The position numbers and the translations under genes were made by a program. Shown here piece by piece: positions 1 to 38,390 of a DNA stretch of 64,000 nt (position 1 is its first letter; every line of letters begins with the position of its first letter). Source of the DNA: Lacibacter sp. H375 (GTDB lineage Bacteria > Bacteroidota > Bacteroidia > Chitinophagales > Chitinophagaceae); NCBI RefSeq assembly GCF_037892425.1, contig NZ_JBBKTT010000001.1:3534001-3598000 (forward strand). The letters run 5' to 3'. The notes under the pieces are model-generated. The model ran no database searches and was not told the origin of the DNA. It saw only the letters and a program-made list of their open reading frames with translations.

Positions 1-278
1 TACCTCTTACATTATGGCACCACAAAAAAGTATAACACGCTTAATGATAGTTGAAAACAGGTATAAGAACAAGTATTCAGTTGCTGCTTGCGGGCTTGCT
101 AATTGCTTTGGAAAAAAATAATCAAGTTCCGGAATCTGCAAATGCCGACAGAACAACTCTTGCAAAACGAAGCAATGCCACGGGAATCTTAAAACAAGGG
201 TGTTATATGATCATTGAAGTAACAAAAGGAGATTAAGAAAGAAAATTTGTAAAATATAATCAACAAAAAAAACAGACC
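1..278. other. Upstream flank of the DUF305 gene, no confident gene
   Basis: This flank contains only short open frames. One from a TTG at 51 to 236 has no ATG, and an ATG frame at 44-121 would encode 25 residues; neither has a recognisable family. A TGGCAC element at 15-20 resembles a sigma-54 -24 box but no -12 element follows it. I see no RNA gene or repeat here. Confidence 0.4.
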
Positions 279-953
279 ATGAAACAAGTAAGAAAAGGTT
301 TTATAACCGTGTGTATCTTTTTTTTAGCAGCATGTAACAACAGTGGTGAAAACGCTTCAGCAAATAGCGACACTGCCACAACACAAACCGATCACACAAC
401 AACACATCAACCATCGTTATCACACGACAGTGCTGCAGCTCACGGCAACCTCATGAAATCAATGGATGATATGATGAGCAACATGAAGAAAATGCAAATG
501 ACAGGCGACTTTGATATAGATTTTGCAAACATGATGATAGAACATCACCAGGGTGGAATAAACATGGCGCAAGTTGAAATTTCAAACGGTAAAGATGAGA
601 AGATGAAAACAATGGCGCAGGAAATTACCAGGAAGCAAAAAGAAGAGCAGCAAAAGTTAAGAGAATTTATCGGCAGTTATAAACCATCCGGCATGAAACA
701 TGGCGAAGGTGAACTGCAAAAATCGATGAGTGGTATGGATAGTAAATCGAAGGCCATGCAAACAAATGCTGATGTTGATAAAGATTTTGCAGTAATGATG
801 ATCTCGCATCATGAGCATGCAGTTGAAATGGCAAAAATGCAACTTAAACATGGCATGTCGGCTGAATTAAAAAAGATGGCGCAGGACATGATCAATGATC
901 AGAAAAAAGAAATAAGTGAATTTAAAACCTGGTTGAACGCAAGGGACAAATAA
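279..953 (+). CDS. DUF305 domain lipoprotein
   Basis: A 224-residue predicted lipoprotein: the signal peptide ends in a LAAC lipobox with Cys19. After a Ser/Thr/His-rich linker come two DUF305-type helical halves, each starting with a paired histidine: FANMMIEHHQGG (His89-90) and FAVMMISHHEHA (His177-178, His180). Methionine and histidine are abundant, which in this family suggests binding of a soft metal such as copper, although the biochemical role of DUF305 is not firmly established. It is probably anchored in the periplasmic face of a membrane. It stands alone, with no adjacent copper regulator or oxidase, so metal handling is inference. Confidence 0.88.
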   Translation: MKQVRKGFITVCIFFLAACNNSGENASANSDTATTQTDHTTTHQPSLSHDSAAAHGNLMKSMDDMMSNMKKMQMTGDFDIDFANMMIEHHQGGINMAQVEISNGKDEKMKTMAQEITRKQKEEQQKLREFIGSYKPSGMKHGEGELQKSMSGMDSKSKAMQTNADVDKDFAVMMISHHEHAVEMAKMQLKHGMSAELKKMAQDMINDQKKEISEFKTWLNARDK

Positions 954-968
954 TCCGCCCATCCGCCA

Positions 969-1002
969 GCCCGGGGTGTGGTGCAACCAGCCCCGGGATT
1001 CA
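969..1002. repeat. GC-rich palindromic element, copy A
   Basis: A 34-nt element whose arms CCCGGGG (970-976) and CCCCGGG (991-997) pair perfectly, with an inner TGGT/ACCA stem around a GCA loop. It matches 26608-26641 at 27 of 34 positions without gaps, and both copies are followed by an A/T-rich tail. This suggests a dispersed REP-like element or a small structured RNA; function unknown. Confidence 0.55.
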
Positions 1003-1388
1003 GAAAAAATAATATCCCAGGTGCCTTTGGGTGAATGACCCGAGGCAAGTAAAACGTTCAGCAACAAACGGCTGATGCTGCGTTCAGATCCTGCTCCGGG
1101 CTCTATTCGTCATCTTCCTTTAATATGCAGTCGAGTGTAATGTAAATGAATCGATGCAATGGAACAAGCGAATAATATTCTACGAGTTCCTTACAATAAA
1201 CTCAACTGCGATACAAATTGTAAACCTGCAAAATGGGAACGTCTGTCCTCATCGTTAATTTTCTTTTTCCCTTCCAAATTAACTGCTACACATCATTGAG
1301 TATTCTGTAGTGGTATTTCTGTGCACAGCATGGGGTACTAATTACCCAATGAACCGGCCATTCGCTTATTCTCACCCTATGTGTTTTA

Positions 1389-1404
1389 TGGCACGCTATT
1401 TAAA
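1389..1404 (+). promoter_or_regulatory. Sigma-54-like promoter for the repeat protein
   Basis: TGGCAC-GCTAT-TTAAA: a perfect -24 half (TGGCACG) at correct spacing, but a poor -12 half (TTAAA instead of TTGCW). It lies 64 bp upstream of the ATG at 1469. It belongs to the set of TGGCA elements described in the findings and is one of its weaker members. Confidence 0.35.
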
Positions 1405-1468
1405 ACTAATTCAGACATAACAACGGATGGCGGAGCCATTCAATTTCATAACAATAAAACTTTTAATC

Positions 1469-1810
1469 ATGGCAGAAGAACGTAACAAACCATCTCAAGG
1501 CGCAGGTCGTGGTGGAAATCAGGGCGAGAGCGATGAGCAACGTTTAAAGAGGGAAGGTGAAGAACAAAGGACAGGAAATGAAAGAGGAGGGCAAGGTAAC
1601 GGCAACGACAGGAATCAAAGTGAAAGCGATGAGCAACGCCGAAACCGTGAAGGTAATGAACAACGTACCGGAACTGAAAGTGGCGGACAAGGTAACCGCA
1701 GCGACAGAAACGAAGATGAAGGACGAGGCATGGAAGGCGGACAACGCAGACAGGATTCCGGAAGAGAGGGTGATAACAAAAGCAGGGATTCCCGCTCTGG
1801 TGGAATGTAG
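1469..1810 (+). CDS. Disordered hydrophilic repeat protein
   Basis: A 113-residue protein made almost entirely of Gly, Glu, Arg, Gln, Asn, Asp and Ser, with no hydrophobic core. I chose the ATG at 1469 because an upstream extension from 1427 is hydrophobic and out of character. Two 32-residue units follow each other (residues 20-51 and 52-83), both built on ESDEQR..REG.EQRTG...GGQGN..DRN. Such composition resembles hydrophilins and other desiccation-associated disordered proteins, but no named family is recognised. A strong terminator follows directly. Its position among stress genes supports a stress role by inference only. Confidence 0.75.
   Translation: MAEERNKPSQGAGRGGNQGESDEQRLKREGEEQRTGNERGGQGNGNDRNQSESDEQRRNREGNEQRTGTESGGQGNRSDRNEDEGRGMEGGQRRQDSGREGDNKSRDSRSGGM
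1526..1717 (+). repeat. Two tandem 96-bp in-frame repeats
   Basis: Units 1526-1621 and 1622-1717 encode the two 32-residue repeats of the hydrophilic protein. They begin identically at GAGAGCGATGAGCAACG and GAAAGCGATGAGCAACG. Period 96 bp keeps the reading frame, as expected from duplication within the gene. Confidence 0.8.
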
Positions 1811-1828
1811 ATTTTAACGATTGCAAAA

Positions 1829-1866
1829 GAGGTCTTCTTCCAACGAAGAAGACCTCCCTTTTTTTT
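1829..1866 (+). terminator. Rho-independent terminator
   Basis: A perfect 12-bp stem GAGGTCTTCTTC / GAAGAAGACCTC with a CAAC loop, followed by CC and eight T. It ends the transcript of the repeat protein. Confidence 0.93.
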
Positions 1867-1915
1867 GACAGGTGAATGGGTGTGCAAACAGCTTGTCATA
1901 ATAGATGACGTCAGC

Positions 1916-1949
1916 AAAAAAAATGACCATCCTTGTGGATGGCCTTTTT
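1916..1949 (-). terminator. Terminator of the lysine-rich small gene
   Basis: On the minus strand GGCCATCC pairs with GGATGGTC around an ACAA loop and is followed by A and a run of T. One pair is a G-U wobble on the minus strand but an A-C mismatch on the plus strand, so it serves the minus-strand gene ending at 2005. Confidence 0.7.
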
Positions 1950-2004
1950 GCAAATTTGTTTACTTGTTGGCGAAGACATATACAGAATTACCAATACGGT
2001 TAAC

Positions 2005-2181
2005 CTATCGGTTGTTGCTGCGTGCAGATCTTGAATTGGGTTCCATTCCGATTCGGCCTTCGTAAGTGCTGCTGTTGCTTTTGTCTTTCCTTGCTTCTTT
2101 CTTTTTTTGATAGGCTTGTTCGTGTGGTTGCTTGCTGCTCACACGTTTGCTATCTTCTTTCTTTTTTCTTGGATTGTCCAT
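2005..2181 (-). CDS. Small lysine-rich protein, 58 residues
   Basis: A short gene read from ATG at 2181 to TAG at 2005. The product begins MDNPRKKKEDSKRVSSKQ and is strongly basic, with Lys/Arg/Glu clusters and a SRSARSNNR tail; no hydrophobic segment and no recognised domain. Support comes from its context: a sigma-54-like element on its own strand 23 bp upstream (2205-2220) and a matched minus-strand terminator downstream. A nucleic-acid-binding role is possible from charge alone, but I do not recognise a family. Confidence 0.62.
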   Translation of the reverse strand: MDNPRKKKEDSKRVSSKQPHEQAYQKKKEARKDKSNSSTYEGRIGMEPNSRSARSNNR

Positions 2182-2204
2182 AGCATTTATTTTTTAATGA
2201 ACGA

Positions 2205-2220
2205 CCCAAATGTTATGCCA
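2205..2220 (-). promoter_or_regulatory. Sigma-54-like promoter for the lysine-rich gene
   Basis: Read on the minus strand: TGGCAT-AACAT-TTGGG, with a full -24 half and a TTGG -12 half at the correct five-base spacing. The ATG at 2181 is 23 bp further on, which gives a short leader. Confidence 0.5.
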
Positions 2221-2304
2221 CTCCAGCGAACGAATATTTTATCATGGAATACAACGCAAAGGAAATAGAACTATAGAACCCCTTGTGGTTAACTATCTTA
2301 GATT

Positions 2305-2691
2305 ATGGATAAAAAAATGATACTGGCTGAGCTTCATAAAAAAATGATTACAGAAATACAGGATTATGCAATCATCTTACTTGATATTGACGGAACTATT
2401 TTATCATGGAATAAAGGAGCAGAAAAAATAAAGGGATATAAAGAAGAAGAAATACTTGGGCAAAACTTCAGATTGTTTTATATGCCTCAAGACAGACAAG
2501 CTGGTCTTCCGGAACAATTAATTGAACAGGCAAAAAAGGAAGGTAGTGCAAGGCATATTGGAAGACGGGTTAAAAAAGGAGGAATAATATTTTGGGGTAG
2601 TATTCTCATTACTGCTTTGCATAACGACGATGGGGAAGTGATAGGTTTTACGAAATTAACAAGTGAGGTGAACGATTACAGCAATGAATAA
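2305..2691 (+). CDS. Stand-alone PAS domain protein
   Basis: A 128-residue protein consisting of one PAS fold (about residues 14-125): IILLDIDGTILSWNKGAEKI, then the KGYKEEEILGQNF segment, and a C-terminal strand DGEVIGFTKLT. There is no kinase, GGDEF, HTH or transmembrane segment, so it senses or binds a ligand or partner without its own output domain. Similar PAS modules usually head hybrid histidine kinases. No kinase lies next to it. Ligand and partner are unknown. Confidence 0.85.
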   Translation: MDKKMILAELHKKMITEIQDYAIILLDIDGTILSWNKGAEKIKGYKEEEILGQNFRLFYMPQDRQAGLPEQLIEQAKKEGSARHIGRRVKKGGIIFWGSILITALHNDDGEVIGFTKLTSEVNDYSNE

Positions 2692-2889
2692 AGCTGCAGC
2701 GTTGCACATGGGCATTTAGAACATATAGATGACATTCCTGTGGTTCAGTTCATGCCCCTTGCACAGGGAAGAGTGTTAAACAAATAACATCCCAGGCTCA
2801 AACCAAAGTTCCACAATCTATTTCAGCAATAATGAAAACACTGTTAAACCTCGAAAGCTGTGGATAACAAAATCTTGTTCATTATATCC

Positions 2890-2905
2890 TCGCATAGTTT
2901 TTGTT
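2890..2905 (+). promoter_or_regulatory. Sigma-54-like promoter
   Basis: TCGCAT-AGTTT-TTGTT, one mismatch in the -24 half and a good TTG -12 half at correct spacing, 32 bp before the ATG at 2938. Confidence 0.42.
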
Positions 2906-2937
2906 ATTCTACCTGAAAATTCGATCCTGTTCTGAAA

Positions 2938-3204
2938 ATGGAAAATTTACGAAACCTGGAAACCCATGTATTAATGGAGATGCTTGTGAGGCAAACTGCT
3001 GAACTAACAGCTAAGATTGCCGGCAGGGATCCCCGTGGTGCCGACCAATATGAATACGATTTAGCAATGATACAGGCTGAATTAAATTCCCGTCTTCAGA
3101 CGAAACAGAATACTACAGTTTCTGATACCGGTATAGAGTTTACATCTCCCGTACATCCCGCTGCTGCAGCGCCCGAGCCCGGAAGTCAGAGTACGACTGC
3201 ATAA
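2938..3204 (+). CDS. Hypothetical protein, 88 residues
   Basis: A small soluble protein with an amphipathic N-terminal helical part (residues 5-30, LETHVLMEMLVRQTAELTAK), a second helix around residues 38-55, and a Pro/Ala/Ser/Thr-rich disordered tail. No signal peptide or membrane segment and no recognised family. It lies between the PAS gene and Ku and has its own sigma-54-like element, so I group it with the stress genes by context only. Confidence 0.6.
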   Translation: MENLRNLETHVLMEMLVRQTAELTAKIAGRDPRGADQYEYDLAMIQAELNSRLQTKQNTTVSDTGIEFTSPVHPAAAAPEPGSQSTTA

Positions 3205-3637
3205 TAACCGGGCTTACATACAATATTTATTTTACCGCATATTACCGATGCTTCATACAGTCAGGCCAATCACCCTGATGCTGTTGTTGATTCGGTTTTA
3301 TTTTCTATAAAGCTCAGATCGCAGTTTGCAGTTAAGCGGAAGTATTAGTTGGTTGAAAAATGATTACTTTCTTATTTATCTGGTACGGTTTTATAATTAC
3401 AAAGGCAGGGGTTGTTCTCTTGTCTCCTCAAGCGGAGCTTTCTTTATTTTTCTCTTTTGCCGGTTTTACAAATAAGGACAGTTGTATGCCGGTGTAAGGA
3501 ATCTAAAAATGAATGAATGTGTGAAGGAAAGTTGTGTACCCCTTTGTGAAAAAATATGGATGCCGGAGAGAATTCCTTCATCAGCAGAAGTAGGTGAGCA
3601 TGGCATAGTATTTTCTAACTCTTTTAAAACATTTATT
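3205..3637. other. 433-bp spacer before ku
   Basis: No confident gene. An open frame in phase with ku begins at 3482, but its 52 extra residues do not belong to the Ku family, so I treat it as leader. The only regulatory element I can support is the sigma-54-like site at 3601-3616. Confidence 0.5.
3601..3616 (+). promoter_or_regulatory. Sigma-54-like promoter for ku
   Basis: TGGCAT-AGTAT-TTTCT: complete -24 half, correct five-base spacing, and a -12 half (TTTC) one base from consensus. It ends 21 bp before the Ku ATG at 3638, so the leader would be about ten bases. Confidence 0.5.
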
Positions 3638-4411
3638 ATGCGGGCAATCTGGACGGGAGCCATCGGCTTCGGGTTGGTAAATATTCCCATTAAATTATTC
3701 AGTGCAGTAAAACAAAGCGAACTGGAACTGGATATGCTGGATAAAAAAGATATGTCGAATATCCGCTTTAAACGGGTAAATGAAAAAACGGGCAAAGAGG
3801 TGCCGTGGCCTCAGATCATAAAAGCGTATAATCTCAATGATAAATACGTGGTGTTAGATGAGGATGATTTTGCACGTGCAGCTCCTGAAAAAAGCAGGAT
3901 CATTGAAATAAGTGAGTTCATCCAAGAAAAAGAGGTGGATAGTATTTATTACGAAATGCCATATTATGCGGAGCCTGAAAAAAATGGCAGTAAAGCTTAT
4001 GCATTGTTGCGGGATGCATTGCGTAAAACAGGGAAAGCAGGCTTGGGAAGTTTTGTATTGCGCAGCAAAGAAAGCCTGTGTTTAATTAAAGCGGAAGGTA
4101 AAGTGATTGTTGTAAACAGGATACGTTTTGCAGAAGAAATCCGCAGCACATCGGACTTAACACTGCCTGCTGCAACAACCAAACCTGCTGAAATGAAAAT
4201 GGCCGTACAGTTGATCGATCAGTTAACAGATAGTTTTGATCTCACAAAATATAAAGACACTTATACGGCCAAGTTGCTTAAAGTAATAAGGGCGAAAGCA
4301 AAAGGCACCATGAAAGCTGTGCCGCAAATGAAAATTGTTCATTCACGTGCTACCGACCTGGTGGCGCAATTAAAAGCCAGCCTTAAAACAGCTGATAAAA
4401 AAGCTTCCTGA
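3638..4411 (+). CDS. ku: Non-homologous end-joining protein Ku
   Basis: A 257-residue bacterial Ku, which binds DNA double-strand ends as a homodimer and recruits LigD. The ATG at 3638 gives the canonical N-terminus MRAIWTGAIGFGLVNIPIKL; the longer frame upstream does not match the family. The core beta-barrel and the arm region (VDSIYYEMPYYAEP, GLGSFVLRSKESLC, VNRIRFAEEIRS) are intact, and a lysine-rich C-terminus follows (residues 220-257), as in other bacterial Ku proteins where it promotes DNA threading and LigD contact. The stop overlaps the next start by one base (TGATG), so it is translationally coupled to the LigD phosphoesterase. Confidence 0.97.
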   Translation: MRAIWTGAIGFGLVNIPIKLFSAVKQSELELDMLDKKDMSNIRFKRVNEKTGKEVPWPQIIKAYNLNDKYVVLDEDDFARAAPEKSRIIEISEFIQEKEVDSIYYEMPYYAEPEKNGSKAYALLRDALRKTGKAGLGSFVLRSKESLCLIKAEGKVIVVNRIRFAEEIRSTSDLTLPAATTKPAEMKMAVQLIDQLTDSFDLTKYKDTYTAKLLKVIRAKAKGTMKAVPQMKIVHSRATDLVAQLKASLKTADKKAS

Positions 4412-5037
4412 TGTCGTTGGCCACTTACAATAAGAAAAGAAATTTCAAAAGCACTTCTGAACCACGAGGTAAACTGGCGAAAGAAGATGAACTACGATTT
4501 GTTGTTCAGCGACACCATGCAACGAATATTCATTATGATTTCAGGTTAGAAATGCATGGAGTGCTATTGAGTTGGGCTGTTCCCAAAGGGCCTTCGTTGA
4601 ATGGCGCAGACAGACGCCTTGCCATGCATGTAGAAGATCACCCGGTGAGTTATATTAATTTTGAAGGGACAATACCGAAAGGAAATTATGGTGCAGGTAC
4701 AGTAGAAGTGTGGGATCATGGCCGTTATATTCCGCTGAATGAAGATGGTGAACCGATCTCTGAAAAGCTGGCTTACGCAATGTATAAAAAGGGTAGTTTG
4801 AAAGTTGAGTTGAAAGGAAGAAAACTAAAAGGTGAATTTGCATTGGTGAATATGAAAAAGGATGACGGTAAAAGCTGGCTGTTGATCAAACACAAGGATA
4901 AGTATGCTGTAACTGAACAATACAATGCTGAAGAATTCAGCAAGAATAAGCGAAAAGAAGAATTGGCAACTATAAAAACAACAGCTAAGAAACAGGTAAA
5001 AAAAAAGCCCGCCCGGAAAAGAACCCGAACGACCTGA
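4411..5037 (+). CDS. LigD 3'-phosphoesterase domain protein
   Basis: A 208-residue stand-alone LigD phosphoesterase (PE), which in the family heals 3' ends by removing ribonucleosides and 3'-phosphates before ligation. The core FVVQRHHATNIHYDFRLEMH carries the equivalents of the Pseudomonas LigD metal and phosphate ligands: His35, His41, Asp43, Arg45, and His77 with Tyr81 in HVEDHPVSYINFEG. A Lys/Arg-rich tail (KKPARKRT) ends the protein. In Pseudomonas this domain is fused to ligase and polymerase; here it is a separate gene, coupled to ku by a one-base overlap and 26 bp before the ligase-polymerase gene in another frame. Confidence 0.93.
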   Translation: MSLATYNKKRNFKSTSEPRGKLAKEDELRFVVQRHHATNIHYDFRLEMHGVLLSWAVPKGPSLNGADRRLAMHVEDHPVSYINFEGTIPKGNYGAGTVEVWDHGRYIPLNEDGEPISEKLAYAMYKKGSLKVELKGRKLKGEFALVNMKKDDGKSWLLIKHKDKYAVTEQYNAEEFSKNKRKEELATIKTTAKKQVKKKPARKRTRTT

Positions 5038-5063
5038 TTGATTTAGTTAGAAACAGTAAAAAG

Positions 5064-6956
5064 ATGAGTGACTACATCCATCCTATGCTGGCTACTCCAA
5101 ATGAAAATATATTTGATGATAAAGCGTGGATCTTTGAATTGAAACTTGATGGATACCGTGCAATTGCAGAGTTGCGTAAAGACGGAATTTTATTGTATTC
5201 CCGAAATGGGTTATCCTTTCTTGAAAAATTTCCACTGATCGTTGCCGGTTTAAAAAAAATAAAACAACAGGTTGTACTCGATGGAGAAATTGTATTAACT
5301 GATGAACATGGGAAACCCGATTTTCAGAAGCTGCAACATTACCAGGAAAACACCCACCTGTTTCTGCAGTATTATGTTTTTGATTTGTTAAGTGTTGATG
5401 GAAAGAAAATGCAGGATTTGCCGTTGCTGGAAAGAAAAAAAATGCTGAAGAAAATTATAGGCGCAAATCCGTTGATACGTTATTGTGATCATATTGAAGA
5501 GCAGGGCAAAGCTTTTTACAAAAAAGTAGTGACGGAAGGGATGGAGGGAGTTATTGCAAAACGAAAGGAGAGTGTTTACATACAGGGTTATAGAACAACA
5601 GACTGGTTGAAAATAAAAAATGTACACACACATGAAGCGATCATTTGCGGCTATACTGCCGGGCGTGGCAGCAGAAAACATTTCGGTGCATTGATATTGG
5701 GACAGTATAAAAATAATCAGCTGCAATACATTGGTCATACTGGCACCGGTTTTAATGAACGCACATTGAAAGACCTCTGGTCATTACTGCAACCGCTGAA
5801 GAGTGCCCGTTCGCCATTTTCACAAACGGTTAAAGTAAATGCAGCGGTGATTTGGGTAAAACCAAAACTGGTAGCAGAGCTCAAGTATACAGCTATAACA
5901 GAAGATGGAATGATGCGGCACCCGGTGTTTCTTCGTCTTCGTCCTGATCAGGATGCAAAAACGATTACTATGAACAAAGAAAAAAAAGTAAAGGCTACAG
6001 CTGCGAAAATGAAACAAAAGCCATTAAAGGAAACAGAGCAGCCTGTTGAATCGAAAGAAATCTCAGTGGCAGGAAAGAAACTTGCTTTTACAAATCTCAA
6101 TAAAGTTTTCTGGCCATCCGAAAATTATACAAAAGCTGATCTCATTGATTATTACGACAGCATTGCAGATTACATTTTACCTTATCTCAAAAACAGACCA
6201 TTATCTCTCAAACGAAATCCAAATGGTATTCAGGATGCAGGTTTTTATCATAAAGATGCCGGTGGCGATGTTCCATCATGGATAAAAAAAGCAAACATCA
6301 AATCTGCATCAACAAACAAGATCATCCATTACCTTGTTTGTAATAATAAAGCCACCCTGCTTTTTTTGGCAAACTTTGGTTGCATTGAATTCAATCCATG
6401 GAATTCACTTACAACTAAACTCGATAAACCATCTTACCTGGTGATTGATATTGATCCATCAAAAAAGAACAAGTTTGAAGATGTTATTGAAACTGCACTT
6501 GTAACAAAAGCCATACTCGATAAAGCGGGTGCTGTTTCTTTTTGCAAAACCTCTGGCGCCAGCGGATTGCATGTGTATGTGCCAATGGGTAATAAATATG
6601 AAGATGAAACTGTGCGGAATTTTGCGCATCTCATTGCTTCGCTGGTTGTAGAGCAGTTGCCGCAAATTACTACGTTGGAAAGAAGTCTTGCAAAACGCAG
6701 CGACAAAAAGATATATGTTGATTATCTGCAAAACAGGAGAGGACAAACCCTTGCTTGTGCATATTCATTAAGACCGGTTGCTGGTGCATCGGTATCAACA
6801 CCACTCAGCTGGAAAGAAGTGAAACCTGGTTTAGATCCTTTGGATTTTCATATTGGCAATATCGTTACCAGGATAAAGAAGAAAGGAGATCTTTTTGCGC
6901 CGGTGTTAGGTGCCGGCGTGAACCTGGTAAATTGTTTAAAGCAATTGGATATATAA
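5064..6956 (+). CDS. ligD: ATP-dependent DNA ligase D, ligase plus polymerase domains
   Basis: A 630-residue NHEJ enzyme in LIG-POL order. The ligase domain carries motif I FELKLDGYRA with nucleotidyl Lys27, motif IV EGVIAKR and motif V DWLKIKNV, then an OB-fold to about residue 300. A lysine-rich linker leads into the archaeo-eukaryotic primase-type polymerase: SYLVIDIDPS with metal ligands Asp462 and Asp464, the SGASGLHVYVPM motif, and RRGQTLACAYSLRP. It seals broken ends and fills gaps with dNTP or rNTP. With the upstream PE gene the order is PE-LIG-POL as in the Pseudomonas fusion, but split into two proteins. It is the last gene of the ku operon. Confidence 0.96.
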   Translation: MSDYIHPMLATPNENIFDDKAWIFELKLDGYRAIAELRKDGILLYSRNGLSFLEKFPLIVAGLKKIKQQVVLDGEIVLTDEHGKPDFQKLQHYQENTHLFLQYYVFDLLSVDGKKMQDLPLLERKKMLKKIIGANPLIRYCDHIEEQGKAFYKKVVTEGMEGVIAKRKESVYIQGYRTTDWLKIKNVHTHEAIICGYTAGRGSRKHFGALILGQYKNNQLQYIGHTGTGFNERTLKDLWSLLQPLKSARSPFSQTVKVNAAVIWVKPKLVAELKYTAITEDGMMRHPVFLRLRPDQDAKTITMNKEKKVKATAAKMKQKPLKETEQPVESKEISVAGKKLAFTNLNKVFWPSENYTKADLIDYYDSIADYILPYLKNRPLSLKRNPNGIQDAGFYHKDAGGDVPSWIKKANIKSASTNKIIHYLVCNNKATLLFLANFGCIEFNPWNSLTTKLDKPSYLVIDIDPSKKNKFEDVIETALVTKAILDKAGAVSFCKTSGASGLHVYVPMGNKYEDETVRNFAHLIASLVVEQLPQITTLERSLAKRSDKKIYVDYLQNRRGQTLACAYSLRPVAGASVSTPLSWKEVKPGLDPLDFHIGNIVTRIKKKGDLFAPVLGAGVNLVNCLKQLDI

Positions 6957-7003
6957 TAAATGATCATTTCGTTGGATTAACCAACAGCGTGTCTTTAACG
7001 GGA

Positions 7004-7019
7004 TGGCATGAAGCTTGTT
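7004..7019 (+). promoter_or_regulatory. Sigma-54-like promoter, best match
   Basis: TGGCAT-GAAGC-TTGTT: full -24 half including the G at position 7, correct spacing, and a TTG -12 half. It lies 37 bp before the ATG at 7057. Confidence 0.6.
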
Positions 7020-7056
7020 TTTTCTACTTCATTACTTATCGAAAAAATATGTGATC

Positions 7057-7392
7057 ATGAAAGATGCACGGTTTGATGTGGTGTCGCTACTGTTTTTTTT
7101 ATTTCTTCTTTCAGCATTTTTATTTGTAAGCCCGACCGGTGGGAGCATCCGTGGAACTGTTGTTCCTGCTGATAGTGCTTTGCGTGCCTGTGCAATAAGG
7201 TTAAGAGACACTGTAAAAGCAAACGTTGTTGGGGGAAAGTTTATTATTGTTAAACTCAAGCCCGGTAAATATGATATTCTGATAGAACCTGTGCCACCTG
7301 CCAAGGGTATAAAATTCAAAGCCATTATGGTGAATGAAGGCAGGGTAACTGATGTAGGCGTCATTCAGCTGGGAAAGCAGAAAGCAAAATAA
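7057..7392 (+). CDS. Exported carboxypeptidase-regulatory-like domain protein
   Basis: A 111-residue protein with an N-terminal hydrophobic helix (VSLLFFLFLLSAFLFVSP) and one beta-sandwich resembling a carboxypeptidase regulatory-like domain (GSIRGTVVPADSALRACAIRLRD..GKFIIVKLKPGKYDILIEP), the transthyretin-like fold that in Bacteroidota often precedes TonB receptors. No catalytic or barrel domain follows, so it is a lone envelope domain. I chose the ATG at 7057 because it places a charged N-terminus before the helix. Function unknown; it probably faces the periplasm. Confidence 0.72.
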   Translation: MKDARFDVVSLLFFLFLLSAFLFVSPTGGSIRGTVVPADSALRACAIRLRDTVKANVVGGKFIIVKLKPGKYDILIEPVPPAKGIKFKAIMVNEGRVTDVGVIQLGKQKAK

Positions 7393-7408
7393 ATAAACCA
7401 AGGTAGTG

Positions 7409-7747
7409 CTACAGGTATTTTGATTTATTCGAGTTTTTTTCCACTTGCTCAACAAATGAAGTGAGAATGGGATCAGCAAAATCTTCATATGCGTTGATAA
7501 GTATTCCCTTCCTCCCGTCTTTCGTTTCCACCAAATACATAATGGTATTTTCAGAAGGATCATCAGTTAATTCAAATTGGTAATAACTATTGATCACAAC
7601 TTCTTCCGGCTTATAATAATAGAAATTATTTTTTACGTATAGTCCTGATTTTGTTACCTCAAAGTGTGAGACGTAACCGTCGGCTTCTGCTTTTCTGATA
7701 CAGTTTAGAAGAACAGGGATTTCTGTTGGATTGGGTTGACCTTTCAT
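7409..7747 (-). CDS. Small conserved Bacteroidota protein, paralogue of 56289-56597
   Basis: A 112-residue soluble protein. Its C-terminal half (DDPSENTIMYLVETKDGRKGILINAY) is clearly homologous to the protein at 56289-56597 (NPSDEEIVYAIESKDGHKGVFVNGY). Members of this family are sometimes labelled phosphoribosylpyrophosphate synthetase in databases, but no PRPP-binding motif is visible and the length is a third of the enzyme, so I do not accept that name. It follows the DUF2383 gene on the same strand, with a terminator between them. Confidence 0.75.
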   Translation of the reverse strand: MKGQPNPTEIPVLLNCIRKAEADGYVSHFEVTKSGLYVKNNFYYYKPEEVVINSYYQFELTDDPSENTIMYLVETKDGRKGILINAYEDFADPILTSFVEQVEKNSNKSKYL

Positions 7748-7754
7748 AACCTTA

Positions 7755-7786
7755 TTTTAAAAAGAGGTGCAGCGGTGCTGCACCTC
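7755..7786 (-). terminator. Terminator after the DUF2383 gene
   Basis: A 10-bp perfect stem GAGGTGCAGC / GCTGCACCTC with a three-base loop, followed on the minus strand by five T. It separates the DUF2383 gene from 7409-7747. Confidence 0.88.
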
Positions 7787-7796
7787 CCGTAAATAA

Positions 7797-8255
7797 TCAG
7801 CGACGCTCAACATCACGCAATGCTCTGATCTTATCATGCGAATCAGTAAGTGAACGCATTTGTTTTTCAAGTACCGCTCGAACATCGGCACTGAGTTCAT
7901 GATCCTGCAACGCTGTGCTGTAAGCTCTTAAAGCAGCATCTTCTCCAAACTCACAGGATTCCAAAGCAGCTTTTCTGTCGTTGGTGCTGAATGTTGCTTT
8001 TACACCCATCCAGGCACGATAGATCTTACCTCTTCCCGTCGTTCCTTCTTCCGGTTCATCCAGATATTGCTGCAATTCATTTTTGAATTGCTGGCTTTGT
8101 GCAGCCATATCTTTGAACAGGTTGCGGAGATCTTCATCTTTATCTTCTTCAAGAAAATCTTCGGCTTTATGGTAACCCTCAATACGGTCGTTGTTGATCT
8201 CTACCAGATCAGCAAGAGCTTCACGATTTTGTTTCATTGTTTCTGTTTGTTCCAT
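7797..8255 (-). CDS. DUF2383 (PA2169-type) four-helix protein
   Basis: A 152-residue all-helical, ferritin-like protein of the DUF2383 family. It has the two helical hairpins of the family: LADLVEINNDRIEGYHKAED and LFKDMAAQSQQFKNELQQYL, then WMGVKATFSTNDRKAALESCEFGED and the last helix. Glutamate and histidine residues occupy ferritin-like positions, but metal binding is unproven. Homologues are often induced by general stress. A palindrome at 8290-8309 lies just upstream and may be its operator. Confidence 0.88.
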   Translation of the reverse strand: MEQTETMKQNREALADLVEINNDRIEGYHKAEDFLEEDKDEDLRNLFKDMAAQSQQFKNELQQYLDEPEEGTTGRGKIYRAWMGVKATFSTNDRKAALESCEFGEDAALRAYSTALQDHELSADVRAVLEKQMRSLTDSHDKIRALRDVERR

Positions 8256-8289
8256 CTTGATTAATTTTTATTGTTTACAAATTGTAATT

Positions 8290-8309
8290 ATGTGGAACTG
8301 ATTCCACAT
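8290..8309. promoter_or_regulatory. Perfect inverted repeat, possible operator
   Basis: ATGTGGAA-CTGA-TTCCACAT, 8-bp arms with a four-base centre, 35 bp upstream of the DUF2383 start on the minus strand. The size and position suit a dimeric regulator; the regulator is unknown. Confidence 0.45.
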
Positions 8310-8656
8310 TTATTTCCCCAGCTACAGTTTAGTAATGATGTAATAAGGTTTATTCCGTCTAATCGTCTATACTTTGTTTTATACTTAAATAAAATTTGAA
8401 AAAACCATACCAGCTTCAAACGTTCTTTATCTTTCATTTTAACTTTCATGGGCAATATTGAGCATTAGGGAAAAGCTATGACCACAAATGAGGCAGAACG
8501 TTTATCGAAAGAATAGTAGTGAATGATTCACTAAGGATAAAAAAGTATATGGCTAACAGTTAATAAAAAATACAATCTAGCCCTACACGCAAAGTATCAT
8601 GTGTTTCAATAAATAAGTTGTTGAAGAAAAAAGATTAGCAAGCACAGATTTTAAAG

Positions 8657-8671
8657 TGGCATGGTTTTGCA
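8657..8671 (+). promoter_or_regulatory. TGGCAT..TTGCA element before DUF1328
   Basis: TGGCAT-GGTT-TTGCA: both halves match the sigma-54 consensus, but the spacing is one base shorter than standard. The site at 31071-31085 has the same TGGCATGGTTTTG core with the same short spacing, so the variant is repeated and not a reading slip. Confidence 0.4.
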
Positions 8672-8717
8672 CACAGTCAGTATGATAGCAATTTTCTCAC
8701 TACTTAAATCAAATATT

Positions 8718-8885
8718 ATGTTACGATGGACAGTGATATTTTTGATCATCGCAATAGTGGCAGCTGTTTTAGGATTTACAGGAATAGCTTCAGGAGCAGC
8801 TGCGGCAGCGAAGATCGTATTCTACATCTTTATTGTAATCTTCCTCATTTCTCTCATTTTCGGCAGAACTAAAGGAAGGGTTTAA
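8718..8885 (+). CDS. DUF1328 (YtjA) family small membrane protein
   Basis: A 55-residue protein with two transmembrane helices and the family pattern [33 protein letters not shown] and a short basic tail. I chose the ATG at 8718 because the family starts at MLRW and the 19 residues before it are not conserved. These inner-membrane proteins are typically stress-induced, and their function is unknown. The YtxH-like gene follows 27 bp downstream and is likely co-transcribed. Confidence 0.9.
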
Positions 8886-8912
8886 TAATCTTTAATCACT
8901 AAAAAAAGGGAT

Positions 8913-9119
8913 ATGACAAAAGGATCAAAGATCATTATCAGCGTAGCCGGTGCATTGGCAGCTGGTTTAATCATCAATTATCTGCTGCATACTGAAAAGG
9001 GCTCAGAGATTGGGCAACAGTTGAAAAAAGCAGCAGGCGACTTGCTTGACAAAGGGAAGGAATTGCTGGTTAAATCAAAAGAAGAGTCAGAAGCAAATTT
9101 AAAAGAAGCTACTGTTTAA
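8913..9119 (+). CDS. YtxH-like membrane-anchored helical protein
   Basis: A 68-residue protein with one N-terminal transmembrane helix (IIISVAGALAAGLIINYLL) followed by a TEKGSEIGQQLKKAAGD segment and a charged amphipathic helix, the layout of YtxH-domain general stress proteins (family T.PG..IR..L). It lies 27 bp after the DUF1328 gene on the same strand, which supports a two-gene stress operon. Confidence 0.78.
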   Translation: MTKGSKIIISVAGALAAGLIINYLLHTEKGSEIGQQLKKAAGDLLDKGKELLVKSKEESEANLKEATV

Positions 9120-9544
9120 CAACCCTCTCTTTTAAGCTGATCATGAAACGAACTGTGCGGAAACAGGAAACACTTTATTAAGCAAGCCTGTTTTTCGACT
9201 AGTCTGTATAGTTATAAAAAGAGTCGTGCTTTCGCTTGATCTCTTTTATTTCTGGTTGTTCTCTCAGTGTGACAGTCGCAGCGTTCTTTACCCGGTTTGC
9301 TTGCTGCTGTCACACTTTCTTATAACCCGCTTGATTTATTATTTGGGTGAGAAGAATTCCTCATGCTTTAATATGATTATGAAAACAATCCTTCTCATCA
9401 CTAAAGTACCCACTACATTACTGTTGCTTTTATAAAGCGAAAGCATTTAAATCTGTTTACTGGTAACAGTACTTGAGATATTCACCTTGCTGATTATTTG
9501 CGTTAATAGCTACATAAAATATTAATCTATAAAAACATCAACAC
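9120..9544. ncRNA. Hairpin-rich 425-bp leader before catalase, candidate structured RNA
   Basis: No protein gene is convincing. Two hairpins lie side by side: AGTGTGACAG/CTGTCACACT with an inner CAGC/GCTG (9266-9282 with 9303-9316), and TGAGAAG-A-ATT with AAT-C-CTTCTCA (9348-9358 with 9387-9397). Both are enclosed by an 11-bp stem TGCTTTCGCTT (9227-9237) with AAGCGAAAGCA (9435-9445). That would form a three-way junction of about 220 nt. It may be the catalase leader or a separate RNA; no known RNA family is recognised. A weak sigma-54-like site (TTGCTGA-TTAT-TTGCG) sits at 9487-9502. Confidence 0.4.
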
Positions 9545-11734
9545 ATGGCAACAAAAAAATCAAAACCAGTTGTTTTCAAAAAAAATGAAGAGAATAGTAA
9601 AGCAGTGAATTTGGCGCCGCATACAGAGGAAAGTATAAATGAAACGATGACCACCGACCAGGGAGTAAAAATAAATGACGATCAGAATTCGCTGAAAGCC
9701 GGAAATAGAGGTTCTTCTTTGCTGGAAGATTTTATACTCCGTGAAAAGATCACACACTTTGATCATGAACGCATACCTGAACGTGTGGTACATGCACGTG
9801 GCTCAGGTGCACATGGTGTGTTCAAAGTTTACAAATCGATGAATAGGTTAACCAAAGCCGGTTTTTTAAATGATCCATCTGTTGAAACGCCAGTATTTGT
9901 TCGTTTCTCCACTGTGGTAGGTTCAAGGGGTTCAACTGATCTTGCAAGGGATGCGAGAGGGTTTGCTGTAAAATTTTATACACAGGAAGGGAATTTTGAT
10001 TTGGTGGGTAATAACATGCCGGTTTTTTTTATACAGGATGCAATGAAGTTTCCTGATCTGGTACATGCAGTAAAACCCGAACCGCATAACGAAATGCCAC
10101 AGGCTGCTGCAGCACATGATACTTTTTGGGATTTTATTTCACTCATGCCTGAATCAACTCATATGATCATGTGGGCCATGAGTGACAGAGCTATTCCAAG
10201 AAGTTATCGGATGATGGAAGGGTTTGGTGTACATACATTCCGCTTTATTAATAAAGCAGGAGAATCCAATTTTGTAAAATTTCACTGGAAACCGATATTA
10301 GGTGTTCATGCAGTAACATGGGATGAAGCACAAAAAATTTCAGGAAAAGATCCGGACTTTCATCGCAGAGATCTTTGGCGGGCTATTGAGAGCGGTGCTT
10401 TTCCCGAATGGGAATTAGGCATACAGGTTGTGCCAGAAGCGGACGAGCATAAGTTTGAGTTTGATTTGTTAGATCCTACCAAGCTTATACCTGAAGAACT
10501 GGTGCCGGTGCAGAGAATTGGGAAAATGACACTCAATAGAAATCCGGATAATTTTTTCGCAGAAACAGAACAGGCTGCATTCCATGTAGGCAACATTGTT
10601 CCCGGTATAGATTTCACCAACGATCCACTTTTACAAGGCCGTTTATTTTCTTACACTGATACGCAGCTCATTCGTTTAGGTGGACCTAACTTTCATGAAA
10701 TACCTATCAACAGACCTGTGGTAACGGTTCATAACAATCAACGTGATGGTTTTATGCGTCAACAAATCAATAAAGGAAAAACAAGTTATCATCCTAATTC
10801 GTTAGGTGGTGGTTGTCCCTTTCAGGCGACGATGGCTGAAGGTGGATTTACTTCGCATGCGGAAAAAATTGATGCGCAAAAAGTGAGGGAAAGAAGTCCG
10901 AGTTTTCTTGATCATTTCAGTCAGGCAAAATTATTCTTTAACAGCCAGTCAGATGTTGAGAAAGATCATATTGTTAATGCACTCTCATTTGAATTGGGTA
11001 AATGTGAAACGGAAGCCATTCGTGTGCGTATGCTGGGCATATTATCACAGGTAGAAAAAAGCCTGGCATCGCAGGTTGCTTACAATCTTGGCTTGCATGT
11101 TCCAAAAACACCTGAGTATCCCATGAATCATAGTATTCCTGCAGATGGCGATGTTGCAAAGTTACAGCCAGTGAAGGTTAAAAGCAGTTTACAAAAGTCG
11201 GAGGCGTTAAGCATGGCGAATACCGTAAAAGATAATATACGCACAAGAATGATAGCCATACTTGCTGCTGATGGTGTAGATGAAAAATCGTTAAGTGCGA
11301 TGCAGAAAGCGTTGCAGGCAGAAGGAGCTACAACGGAAATCATTGCACCGAAATTGGGAATGCTGACAGGCGACAAAGGCACTGAAATACCAGTGAAACA
11401 AAGTCTGTTTACAACTGCATCAGTATTTTATGATGCAGTATATATACCGGGCGGAATAAGCACTGCTACTTTGGCCGCAGAACCCGATGCTATTCATTTT
11501 TTAAATGAAGCTTATAAGCATTGCAAAGCAATAGCTGCTGACACATCCGCACTGCAGCTATTTGAAGCAACCTATTTTCATAAGAAATTGCCGGACGATA
11601 ATAGCAAGGAAACTGCATTGACCGAAGGAATAGTAATTCATGATAACATTAAAGAACTTTCATCAAGATTCATCTCTGCTGTTGCCAAACATCGTTTTTG
11701 GGATAGAGAAAAGCCAAAAAAGGTTCCCGCATAA
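9545..11734 (+). CDS. katE: Large-subunit catalase HPII type
   Basis: A 729-residue clade 2 haem catalase that converts hydrogen peroxide to water and oxygen in the cytoplasm. The catalytic His83 is in ERVVHARGSGAHGVF, Asn156 in LVGNNMPVFFIQDA, and the proximal haem Tyr in GRLFSYTDTQLIRLGG near residue 368. After the catalase core, residues from about 570 form the flavodoxin/DJ-1-like domain typical of HPII (TRMIAILAADGVDEKSL, YDAVYIPGG). Length and domains are complete. It ends 14 bp before the convergent Nudix regulator. Its neighbours suggest general stress control rather than OxyR, but no operator is seen. Confidence 0.97.
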   Translation: MATKKSKPVVFKKNEENSKAVNLAPHTEESINETMTTDQGVKINDDQNSLKAGNRGSSLLEDFILREKITHFDHERIPERVVHARGSGAHGVFKVYKSMNRLTKAGFLNDPSVETPVFVRFSTVVGSRGSTDLARDARGFAVKFYTQEGNFDLVGNNMPVFFIQDAMKFPDLVHAVKPEPHNEMPQAAAAHDTFWDFISLMPESTHMIMWAMSDRAIPRSYRMMEGFGVHTFRFINKAGESNFVKFHWKPILGVHAVTWDEAQKISGKDPDFHRRDLWRAIESGAFPEWELGIQVVPEADEHKFEFDLLDPTKLIPEELVPVQRIGKMTLNRNPDNFFAETEQAAFHVGNIVPGIDFTNDPLLQGRLFSYTDTQLIRLGGPNFHEIPINRPVVTVHNNQRDGFMRQQINKGKTSYHPNSLGGGCPFQATMAEGGFTSHAEKIDAQKVRERSPSFLDHFSQAKLFFNSQSDVEKDHIVNALSFELGKCETEAIRVRMLGILSQVEKSLASQVAYNLGLHVPKTPEYPMNHSIPADGDVAKLQPVKVKSSLQKSEALSMANTVKDNIRTRMIAILAADGVDEKSLSAMQKALQAEGATTEIIAPKLGMLTGDKGTEIPVKQSLFTTASVFYDAVYIPGGISTATLAAEPDAIHFLNEAYKHCKAIAADTSALQLFEATYFHKKLPDDNSKETALTEGIVIHDNIKELSSRFISAVAKHRFWDREKPKKVPA

Positions 11735-11748
11735 AAAATCTGAAATAC

Positions 11749-12456
11749 TTACGAATAATAAATATCCGGATTGGGAATAATGGTTGCAACAGCATGAAAA
11801 TTTGCTTTGTAGTTCTTCCTGTTCATTTTATAATACCAGGCACCTCTTTTTGAATTGTCTTTATCTTTTTCATTGAGCTTTTCCAGCAGGTTCATCGATA
11901 AGATTTTCCTGCTGAAGTTGCGGTTGTCCATTTCAATGTCATACACTTCTTCATAAAGGCTTTTCAATTGAGGTAAAGTAAATTTTGCTGGCAGTAATTC
12001 AAAGAGGATGGGGTGGAAGGCAGATTTATAACGTAACCGGGCTTTTGCTTTCTCCACCATTTGTTTATGGTCGAAAATGAGTTTTGGATGTTTATTGATA
12101 TCAAACCATTCGGCATGGAAATCGTCGGTAATTTGTTTTTTATACTTGTTGATGTCGATCAATGCAAAGAAGGCGACTGAAACCGTACGTTCAACCGGGT
12201 CACGGCCTGGCTCACTGAAGGTTGATAATTCTTCCAGGTAAACATTTGATAAACCCGTACGGGTGTGCAGTACACGTGCTGCTGCCTGTTCAACGTTTTC
12301 GTTAGCGAATACAAAACCTCCCATTAAACTCCAACTGCCCATTTCGGGTTCCAATGCCCGTTGAACGAGGAGAATCTTTAATTGCTTTCCATCAAAACCA
12401 AAAACGATACAATCGACAGCTAAGAAAACCCTGGCTTGGTCAGGATAACGGCTCAT
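11749..12456 (-). CDS. NrtR/AraR-like Nudix-domain transcriptional regulator
   Basis: A 235-residue protein with an N-terminal Nudix fold and a C-terminal winged helix (about residues 150-225). The Nudix box runs from Gly47, and Glu53, Arg61 and Gly68 remain, but the catalytic core REUxEE is replaced by RVLHTR, so hydrolysis is unlikely. This is the pattern of NrtR-type regulators, which use the dead Nudix domain to sense a ligand; in Bacteroides the homologue AraR controls arabinose genes. It diverges from galK-galT, with half-sites TAACTGT/ACAGTTA in between, so I infer that it regulates galactose use. Confidence 0.85.
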   Translation of the reverse strand: MSRYPDQARVFLAVDCIVFGFDGKQLKILLVQRALEPEMGSWSLMGGFVFANENVEQAAARVLHTRTGLSNVYLEELSTFSEPGRDPVERTVSVAFFALIDINKYKKQITDDFHAEWFDINKHPKLIFDHKQMVEKAKARLRYKSAFHPILFELLPAKFTLPQLKSLYEEVYDIEMDNRNFSRKILSMNLLEKLNEKDKDNSKRGAWYYKMNRKNYKANFHAVATIIPNPDIYYS

Positions 12457-30957: not shown

Positions 30958-31070
30958 ATTCCCAAGCTTGAAACGTATCATGGGCTTATTTCCAGCTCAT
31001 TAAGGTTAAGGAGTGTAGAATTAATTCCTCAGATAAAATGCAGGTTACTTTACCTGAGATAGTATGAGTA

Positions 31071-31085
31071 TGGCATGGTTTTGTT
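31071..31085 (+). promoter_or_regulatory. TGGCAT..TTGTT element
   Basis: TGGCAT-GGTT-TTGTT, the same short-spacing variant as at 8657, 37 bp before the ATG at 31123. Confidence 0.4.
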
Positions 31086-31122
31086 AAGTCTTAGGTAAGA
31101 TTATTCACTAAAAATTAAAACA

Positions 31123-36096: not shown

Positions 36097-36957
36097 ATGA
36101 AGGATTCGAGGAACATATTGCTGGTGATCGTTTCACTATGTTTGATTGGCACATGGGTTTATCATCTCTACGATAAAAATAAATATGCCAATACTGATGT
36201 GTTGCTGCCCGTGAAAGATTCGCTTGCTGAGCAAACAAAAGTGAACGATTCATTGCGTGTTGCTTATAATGGTTTATTGCGCCAGATCGATTCATCACGT
36301 ACCGCAGCGGTTGTTGATACTGCATTTGTTCCGCTTGATTCAACCAGGAATGCTATTGATAGTTTACGTAATGAAATTGCTTCAATCCTCGCCATCAACA
36401 ATATCACCAAGGAAGATCTGCGCAGGGCAGAGGAAAAGATAAAACAATTGCAGCAGCGGTTATCTTCTTCAGCTTCAACGCCTGTAACTACTTCAACTGA
36501 AATAAAGAATACAACGTCTCCGGCAACAAATCGTGTAGAAACCATCAGTAAACCAATAGCAGAAGATCCTGTGTTTACAGCATCGGCCATCAGTTTCAGA
36601 GCAATACAATCGGGTAAGGAACAGGTAACGGCCAATGCAGATGCAACAGGTTATTTCAGCATTGCCTGCACGGTTCAAAACCCCACAGCTTCATTCAGCG
36701 ATACGGAAGTGTATATGGCGTTGATCGATCCTTCTGGTGATGTGGTACAGGATGATCCCTGGCAATCAGGTATGCTCACTACTTCTAACAACGATCGTAT
36801 TCCCTATACCCGCAAAGCAAAACTTTCTTATGCAAAAGGTGATGCAAGCCGCATCGCAATGAATCTGAAACTGTCTGCGTATGATAAAGGCATGTACAGT
36901 GTGCAGTTCTATCATAATGGAGTTAGGATTGGACGCACAAACCTGCGATTGAATTAG
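36097..36957 (+). CDS. Membrane-anchored coiled-coil protein with beta-sandwich tail
   Basis: A 286-residue protein with one N-terminal transmembrane helix (ILLVIVSLCLIGTWVYHLY), a coiled coil in residues 40-125 broken by a Ser/Thr-rich region, a low-complexity linker, and a C-terminal beta domain (about 155-286: VYMALIDPSGDVVQ, AMNLKLSAYDKGMYSVQFYH). The tail probably lies in the periplasm and resembles domains in which chaperone-like or binding proteins are displayed. No family recognised. Confidence 0.72.
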   Translation: MKDSRNILLVIVSLCLIGTWVYHLYDKNKYANTDVLLPVKDSLAEQTKVNDSLRVAYNGLLRQIDSSRTAAVVDTAFVPLDSTRNAIDSLRNEIASILAINNITKEDLRRAEEKIKQLQQRLSSSASTPVTTSTEIKNTTSPATNRVETISKPIAEDPVFTASAISFRAIQSGKEQVTANADATGYFSIACTVQNPTASFSDTEVYMALIDPSGDVVQDDPWQSGMLTTSNNDRIPYTRKAKLSYAKGDASRIAMNLKLSAYDKGMYSVQFYHNGVRIGRTNLRLN

Positions 36958-38374: not shown

Positions 38375-38390
38375 TGGCATGGTGTTTGGC
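38375..38390 (+). promoter_or_regulatory. Sigma-54-like promoter of the barrel gene
   Basis: TGGCAT-GGTGT-TTGGC: full -24 half, correct spacing, and TTGG followed by C. It lies 15 bp before ATG 38406 and 21 bp before ATG 38412, which favours the second start. Confidence 0.5.

Follow-up and report, generated by a model that had tools for sequence, protein, structure and literature searches.

General stress responses in bacteria are known for sigma-B, RpoS and EcfG, and promoters of the sigma-54 (RpoN) class carry a -24 box with the consensus TGGCAYR, in which the GG is invariant. Here we describe a stretch of 64,000 nt (the window) from the 5.08 Mb, three-contig genome of Lacibacter sp. H375 (Chitinophagaceae, Bacteroidota), in which a short element, TGGYAYR-N-WTTTTK, recurs before ku and before genes for small stress proteins. 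These elements are probably sigma-54-type promoters of a regulon for general stress and DNA repair. The likeness to known sigma-54/NtrC systems lies in the TGGYAYR -24 half, an RpoN with an RpoN box, an activator with a G[AS]FTGA loop and candidate palindromic upstream sites. The differences are that the -12 half is T-rich here and lacks the conserved GC, and that the predicted regulon comprises general stress and non-homologous end joining (NHEJ); in addition, some relatives have a sigma-54 paralogue next to the regulator.

The alphaproteobacterial EcfG/PhyR response has the same kind of output, whereas its sigma family and activation logic differ. To our knowledge, EcfG, NepR and PhyR are absent in Bacteroidota. 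In Sphingopyxis, EcfG is reported to control ku-ligD, csbD and catalases (PMC7083833). Given that Sphingopyxis puts the same kind of genes under EcfG, the predicted regulon looks like an independent solution to the need that EcfG serves. A second rhizobial RpoN, RpoNp of Bradyrhizobium DOA9, is megaplasmid-borne, and the opening lines of its abstract mention no NHEJ island that has an activator next to it. In the accessible part of a study of predicted Bacteroidota sigma-54 regulons, chaperones are enriched and GrpE and GroES are said to be sigma-54-dependent (PMC12316311); the COG numbers tried for Ku, DUF1328, YtxH and DUF892 are absent from its main text, as are the words 'end joining'. Likewise, the accessible text of a 2011 comparative sigma-54 study (PMC3162934) has no word starting with 'Bacteroid'. 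In the literature on sigma-54/RpoN in Bacteroidota, no such regulon is found among the matches listed, which cover few subscription papers, and an earlier description is possible.

A preliminary description of the window named eight TGGCAT-type sites as a sigma-54-type regulon over stress and repair genes. We find all eight, and a ninth, ending at 8412 on the minus strand, that was absent from its list:

1389..1404, plus strand: promoter-like element TGGCACGCTATTTAAA before the repeat protein at 1469; score 16.5, with a palindrome centred 49 bp upstream
2205..2220, minus strand: element TGGCATAACATTTGGG, 39 bp before the lysine-rich protein; score 13.0
2890..2905, plus strand: weak element TCGCATAGTTTTTGTT, 48 bp before an 88-aa protein (2938-3204); score 11.1
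3601..3616, plus strand: element TGGCATAGTATTTTCT, 37 bp before ku; score 19.1, in the same place in relatives
7004..7019, plus strand: element TGGCATGAAGCTTGTT, 53 bp before an envelope-like protein at 7057; score 11.7
8397..8412, minus strand: element TGGTATGGTTTTTTCA, 157 bp before the DUF2383 gene; score 17.2
8657..8672, plus strand: element TGGCATGGTTTTGCAC, 61 bp before the DUF1328 gene; score 14.6, spacing to GC one base shorter
31071..31086, plus strand: element TGGCATGGTTTTGTTA, 52 bp before a 72-aa protein; score 15.8
38375..38390, plus strand: element TGGCATGGTGTTTGGC before a barrel-like protein (named by eye); score 15.0

The scores are those of a matrix trained on 29 sites of relatives, 7 before ku and 22 before DUF1328 (16 strict and 6 near forms chosen by eye), and on none from the Lacibacter genome. 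With this matrix the eight sites score 11.1-19.1, the weakest being 2890 (11.1), 7004 (11.7) and 2220 (13.0); taken singly, 2890 and 7004 may be chance. In positions 1-12000 of the window nine matches score at least 11 in 2977 bp of non-coding DNA and none in 9023 bp of coding DNA, under a hand-set coding mask in which some 70 bp of the lysine-rich gene fall on the non-coding side. Two hundred dinucleotide shuffles of this non-coding DNA yield a mean of 0.43 matches and a maximum of 3. Among the nine, 2794 on the minus strand precedes no gene and 3381 sits 257 bp before ku. Beyond position 12000, six matches scoring at least 10 lie within genes, and the highest of them (15.7, at 36190 on the minus strand) is probably chance.

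Part of what had been said of the eight sites stands. The -24 half is full in seven, TGGCA being incomplete only at 2890 (TCGCAT), and 1389 reads TGGCAC. The -12 half is indeed variable: TTG is present in six of the eight, including 8657 and 31071 at N4 spacing, and after N5 the sites at 1389 and 3601 have TTAAA and TTTCT in its place. The distance to the ATG, given as 15-65 bp, spans 4-80 bp by our measurement. Site 1389 is 80 bp from the start at 1469, and at 38375 the called ATG falls within the element, the next in-frame ATGs being 31 and 37 bp further; gene calls come from a simple codon-score caller, and some gene starts are wrong.

The literal TGGCAT-N5-TTG has to be given up as the repeated element. 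Allowing one mismatch, it matches the window 24 times against a shuffled mean of 30.8, and genome-wide it has 70 exact matches against 50 for the reversed pattern. The -24 half by itself fares little better, since TGGCAYR occurs at 0.34 per kb upstream and 0.27 per kb in coding DNA; the T-run is therefore needed. The window count and the TGGCAYR densities are what speaks for the sites being chance matches to a loose pattern. For the set, this is refuted by the cross-species matrix, the shuffles and the constant place before ku, and we regard it as extremely improbable. Because the literal pattern is not above chance, the preliminary observation holds only with position and extra bases: the element is real, and its consensus is corrected to TGGYAYR-N-WTTTTK. 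Aligned ku and DUF1328 sites give TGGYAYR, a free base, a T-run to position 13 and K at position 14. In the eight window sites the T-run occupies positions 9-13, and across 85 sites most have it at 11-13. R at position 7, which the preliminary pattern did not include, is present in 8/8 of them, as against 42% (214/511) of TGGCAY occurrences in a 464-kb sample of the Lacibacter genome. In 18 hand-listed Lacibacter sites the -24 box keeps GG in 17 (partly by construction) and Y6 and R7 in all 18. A strict TGGCACG-N4-TTGCA with up to two mismatches was also counted (384 against 221 reversed) and set aside, as the dinucleotides of the reversed pattern differ.

The element is concentrated before genes, its density there being about 12- to 45-fold above that in coding DNA at cut-offs of 11-12 across sets. 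In the 464-kb sample, sense matches scoring at least 12 number 9 in 30.2 kb upstream and 5 in 393 kb coding (antisense, 4 and 8). The upstream excess is 21-fold at this score, 12-fold at 11 and 1.8-fold at 7, so the density in coding DNA is far from equal. Eighteen loci (13 islands of relatives holding a second rpoN, hereafter RpoN2 islands, 4 DUF1328 loci and the Lacibacter rpoN locus) give 40 upstream sense matches at score 11 against 8 in 274 kb coding. A further 14 family loci around the regulator described below or DUF1328, of which 13 hold the regulator and are free of training genes except DUF1328, give 16 upstream against 8 in 206 kb coding at score 12, a 13.5-fold excess; leaving out the DUF1328 genes, 14 upstream sites and an 11.8-fold excess remain. 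Antisense matches in this set are 10 upstream and 5 coding. In accordance, 13/391 Lacibacter upstream regions carry a site at score 12, against a mean of 2.2 over 20 shuffles (antisense 7). The corresponding numbers are 34/310 against 1.55 for island upstream regions (antisense 16) and 11/123 against 0.75 for ku loci (antisense 7), where the counts for ku loci and relatives' islands include genes whose sites trained the matrix.

Place is also kept between species. TGGCAYR lies 35-42 bp before the ku ATG in 7 of 11 relatives from Chitinophagaceae and other Bacteroidota. Ten of 14 scored ku loci reach at least 11, every one at 35-42 bp, and over all ku loci the element stands there in 11/16 (this adds a site at 42 bp in L050 and none in L043). 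At ku loci outside the 11 that yielded training sites it is present in 4/5. Within 150 bp upstream of DUF1328, TGGCAYR is found in 18 of 30 loci from 26 genomes, the two Lacibacter loci included. A near-identical element precedes the DUF2383-like genes of the second Lacibacter stress island and of L222 and L223; in that island the genes at C1:3989646 and C1:4007507 each have TGGTAYGGTTTTTTC 151-157 bp upstream, like the window copy.

The machinery that such promoters would need is encoded in the genome. A single rpoN is present, and of ten PF00158 matches five are strong sigma-54 activator domains, with the loop GxFTGA in three and GSFTSA and GAFTDA in two. One of these activators, the stress regulator at C1:4003891-4005336, has receiver, sigma-54 activator and Fis-type helix-turn-helix domains, a GSFTGA loop and an adjoining histidine kinase. 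Its island, the second stress island, holds the same element together with a second DUF1328, DUF892, DUF4142 and DUF2383. Neither the density nor the rpoN check speaks against the sigma-54-type regulon proposed earlier, and it gains from the kept place before ku and DUF1328, from the linkage to a sigma-54 paralogue and an activator, and from a spaced palindrome.

The linkage is seen in relatives. Among 44 family genomes searched (Lacibacter included, out of 60 screened for DUF1328), 44 have rpoN and 13 have two copies, and in 12 of these 13 the regulator adjoins rpoN2. Sensor-kinase genes then follow (by eye; Pfam-confirmed only in L137). In ten copies measured RpoN2 is 469-474 aa long; it shares 35% identity with the RpoN1 of the same genome, the L137 copy has the AID, CBD and DBD domains, and ARRT (the RpoN box) is present in every RpoN copy aligned. 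In a tree of 18 sequences five RpoN1 form a fully supported clade, to which the RpoN2 of L143 is sister at 0.87. Across 118 genomes sampled from the phylum, few of them members of this family, a second full-length rpoN occurs only in the query genome, and the other second matches look like pieces of one gene. ku lies within the same RpoN2 island in L137, L140, L147 and L148, and RpoN2 and DUF1328 are at most 10 kb apart in 6/10 genomes with both. The Lacibacter stress regulator is the nearest of its five activators to all nine RpoN2-linked regulators compared, with 45-51% identity over nearly the full length; the next-scoring activator has 39-41% over a shorter stretch. An orthologue of the regulator (E < 1e-100) is found in 24/26 DUF1328-bearing genomes and in 4/13 others hand-picked from 34 without DUF1328 (Fisher P 1.4e-4), and in 11 of the 24 it lies within 10 kb of DUF1328.

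A candidate enhancer was also sought. A k-mer and dyad count gave weak matches only; a palindrome was then fitted to 49 of 50 regions upstream of strong sites, 9 of the 50 being from Lacibacter, yielding TGGGGAA-N4-TTCCCCA. At up to three mismatches the regions upstream of strong sites contain it 8 times, as against 0.17 on average for 60 permuted palindromes. When at most two mismatches are allowed, 360 kb of ordinary Lacibacter DNA contain 1 copy and the 20-kb Lacibacter island 3, while window positions 1-12000 have 2 and the remainder of the window 0. In relatives the copies number 8 across the RpoN2 islands (244 kb), 7 across the regulator islands (240 kb) and 2 across the ku loci (134 kb). 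Genome-wide, the loose palindrome is found 422 times against 304 reversed. Of 17 places in the Lacibacter genome with at most one mismatch, 5 are in stress islands, four of these outside the learning set. Palindrome and element lie 45-85 bp apart in 15 of 27 pairs, where 2.5 are expected if uniform, the interval having been chosen afterwards. The window holds three copies:

1331..1348, no strand: candidate enhancer palindrome TGGGGTACTAATTACCCA; belonged to the motif learning set
8291..8308, no strand: candidate enhancer palindrome TGTGGAACTGATTCCACA; exact match to the degenerate palindrome, outside the learning set, 357 bp upstream of the 8657 site and on the downstream side of the 8412 site
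31014..31031, no strand: candidate enhancer palindrome TGTAGAATTAATTCCTCA; three mismatches, a learning-set copy, centred 48 bp upstream of the 31071 site

Taken together, the conserved element, its place, the genes and the linkage suggest the following mechanism. Sigma-54 RNA polymerase would wait at TGGYAYR-N-WTTTTK as a closed complex. The NtrC-family regulator at C1:4003891-4005336, phosphorylated under stress by the adjoining histidine kinase, would bind TGGGGAA-N4-TTCCCCA about 45-85 bp upstream and use ATP to open the promoter, in some relatives with a second sigma-54 gene beside the same regulator. The predicted output is Ku/LigD end joining and small stress proteins (DUF1328, DUF2383, DUF892, DUF4142, YtxH-like). 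For Chitinophagaceae and near relatives at large we lean, with moderate confidence, towards a true sigma-54 general stress response covering NHEJ and stress proteins, with a private paralogue in some species, an NtrC-type activator with a palindromic enhancer and a promoter class with a T-rich -12 half. If this is so, the sigma-54 version would keep the stress response silent until an ATP-driven activator fires, and double-strand break repair would fall under it. With activator, promoter class and candidate enhancer named, the control of stress in this large group of bacteria from soil and water can be tested directly.

A number of observations weigh against sigma-54-type promoters as the explanation. 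The GC of the canonical -12 box, TTGCW, is mostly absent (G14 in 4/18 and C15 in 8/18 hand-listed Lacibacter sites), and the sites at 8657 and 31071 are one base short in spacing. As this GC is largely not kept, recognition by sigma-54 is a step that we infer. The missing GC favours a different view, that some other alternative sigma factor, such as one of the extracytoplasmic function (ECF) type, runs the stress regulon and reads the element as its promoter or as the -35 part of it; so does the fact that the EcfG response elsewhere covers the same kind of genes (PMC7083833). Yet there is one conserved block only, for over bases 15-44 from the first T no column exceeds 11/18 in 18 DUF1328 sites. 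TGG-Y-A-Y-R fits the sigma-54 -24 box, and the linkage is to a sigma-54 paralogue and an enhancer-binding protein. We consider another sigma factor unlikely. The presence or absence of rpoN cannot test the role of sigma-54, the gene being universal (44/44 in the family, 118/118 in the phylum sample).

Antisense matches upstream of genes are raised as well (16 against 40 sense in the 18 loci, 10 against 16 in the 14 loci). These, and the regular place before genes, would suit a binding site for an activator or a repressor, with an ordinary Bacteroidota promoter downstream of it. The motif has no dyad, however, its sense-strand bias is 40 to 16, its -24 half is that of sigma-54, and the separate dyad motif could serve as the binding site, so that a regulator site of this kind seems to us quite improbable.

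Further points against sigma-54-type promoters concern coverage. The strict element is missing in 5/16 ku loci and in 12/30 DUF1328 loci, six of the latter having near forms by eye (e.g. TGGTATG, TGGCATC). A large catalase-like gene (by eye) at 9545-11734, next to the stress genes, has no recognisable element in the window scan. Genome-wide the strict pattern TGGYAYRNWWTTTK occurs 29 times against 21 for the reversed control. In favour of such promoters, ten of the 29 fall within two Lacibacter stress islands totalling 41.7 kb, 7 in C1:3989646-4021212 (one within a gene) and 3 in C1:3532319-3542399 (two of them in the window); the chance of this is about 2e-14, a value that is too small, as is that for the palindrome spacing, since islands and interval were picked after seeing the matches. 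The palindrome is also raised (20 against 1.17) in the 307 regions that lack a strong site and served for comparison, part of this set being island DNA. Of the 9 window sites just 2 have it in the 300 bp upstream, and both of these copies belong to the learning set. In 7/10 loci (L137, L139, L140, L141, L142, L144 and L145) rpoN2 is preceded by similar palindromes with up to four mismatches, which start 160-200 bp before the gene, and no element scoring at least 8 lies within 350 bp of rpoN2; the regulator may control its own operon by another route.

Sigma-54-type control raises the questions of how a paralogue of sigma-54 was recruited to the stress response and whether recognition of the -12 half has changed. 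The residues after the SR pair, which we take to lie in the sigma-54 recognition helix, are TTQ in enterobacterial RpoN, ANS in RpoN1 and mostly TSN or TCN in RpoN2, the SR arginine being kept in both types. It is our guess that these differing residues could shift the -12 preference.

The genes that follow the elements in the first part of the window are these:

1469..1810, plus strand: hydrophilic repeat protein, 113 aa, without Pfam match
2005..2181, minus strand: lysine-rich protein, 58 aa, from translation
3638..4411, plus strand: ku, closely followed by open reading frames (ORFs) 4411-5037 and 5064-6956
7797..8255, minus strand: DUF2383 protein (Pfam PF09537)
8718..8885, plus strand: DUF1328 protein, 55 aa (Pfam PF07043)
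8913-9119: YtxH-like protein after DUF1328, the YtxH match being under the family cut-off

The two ORFs after ku are presumably parts of a LigD that seems to be split, the one at 4411-5037 being phosphoesterase-like and the one at 5064-6956 a ligase-polymerase. ku and these two ORFs likely form one operon. Because ku, the phosphoesterase-like ORF and ligD are closely packed, transcription from the ku promoter probably covers all of the NHEJ set. Barrel-like outer-membrane proteins (by eye) with the element are found at window position 38375, in L138 (16938-17603) and at C1:4579568, and envelope change may belong to the response.

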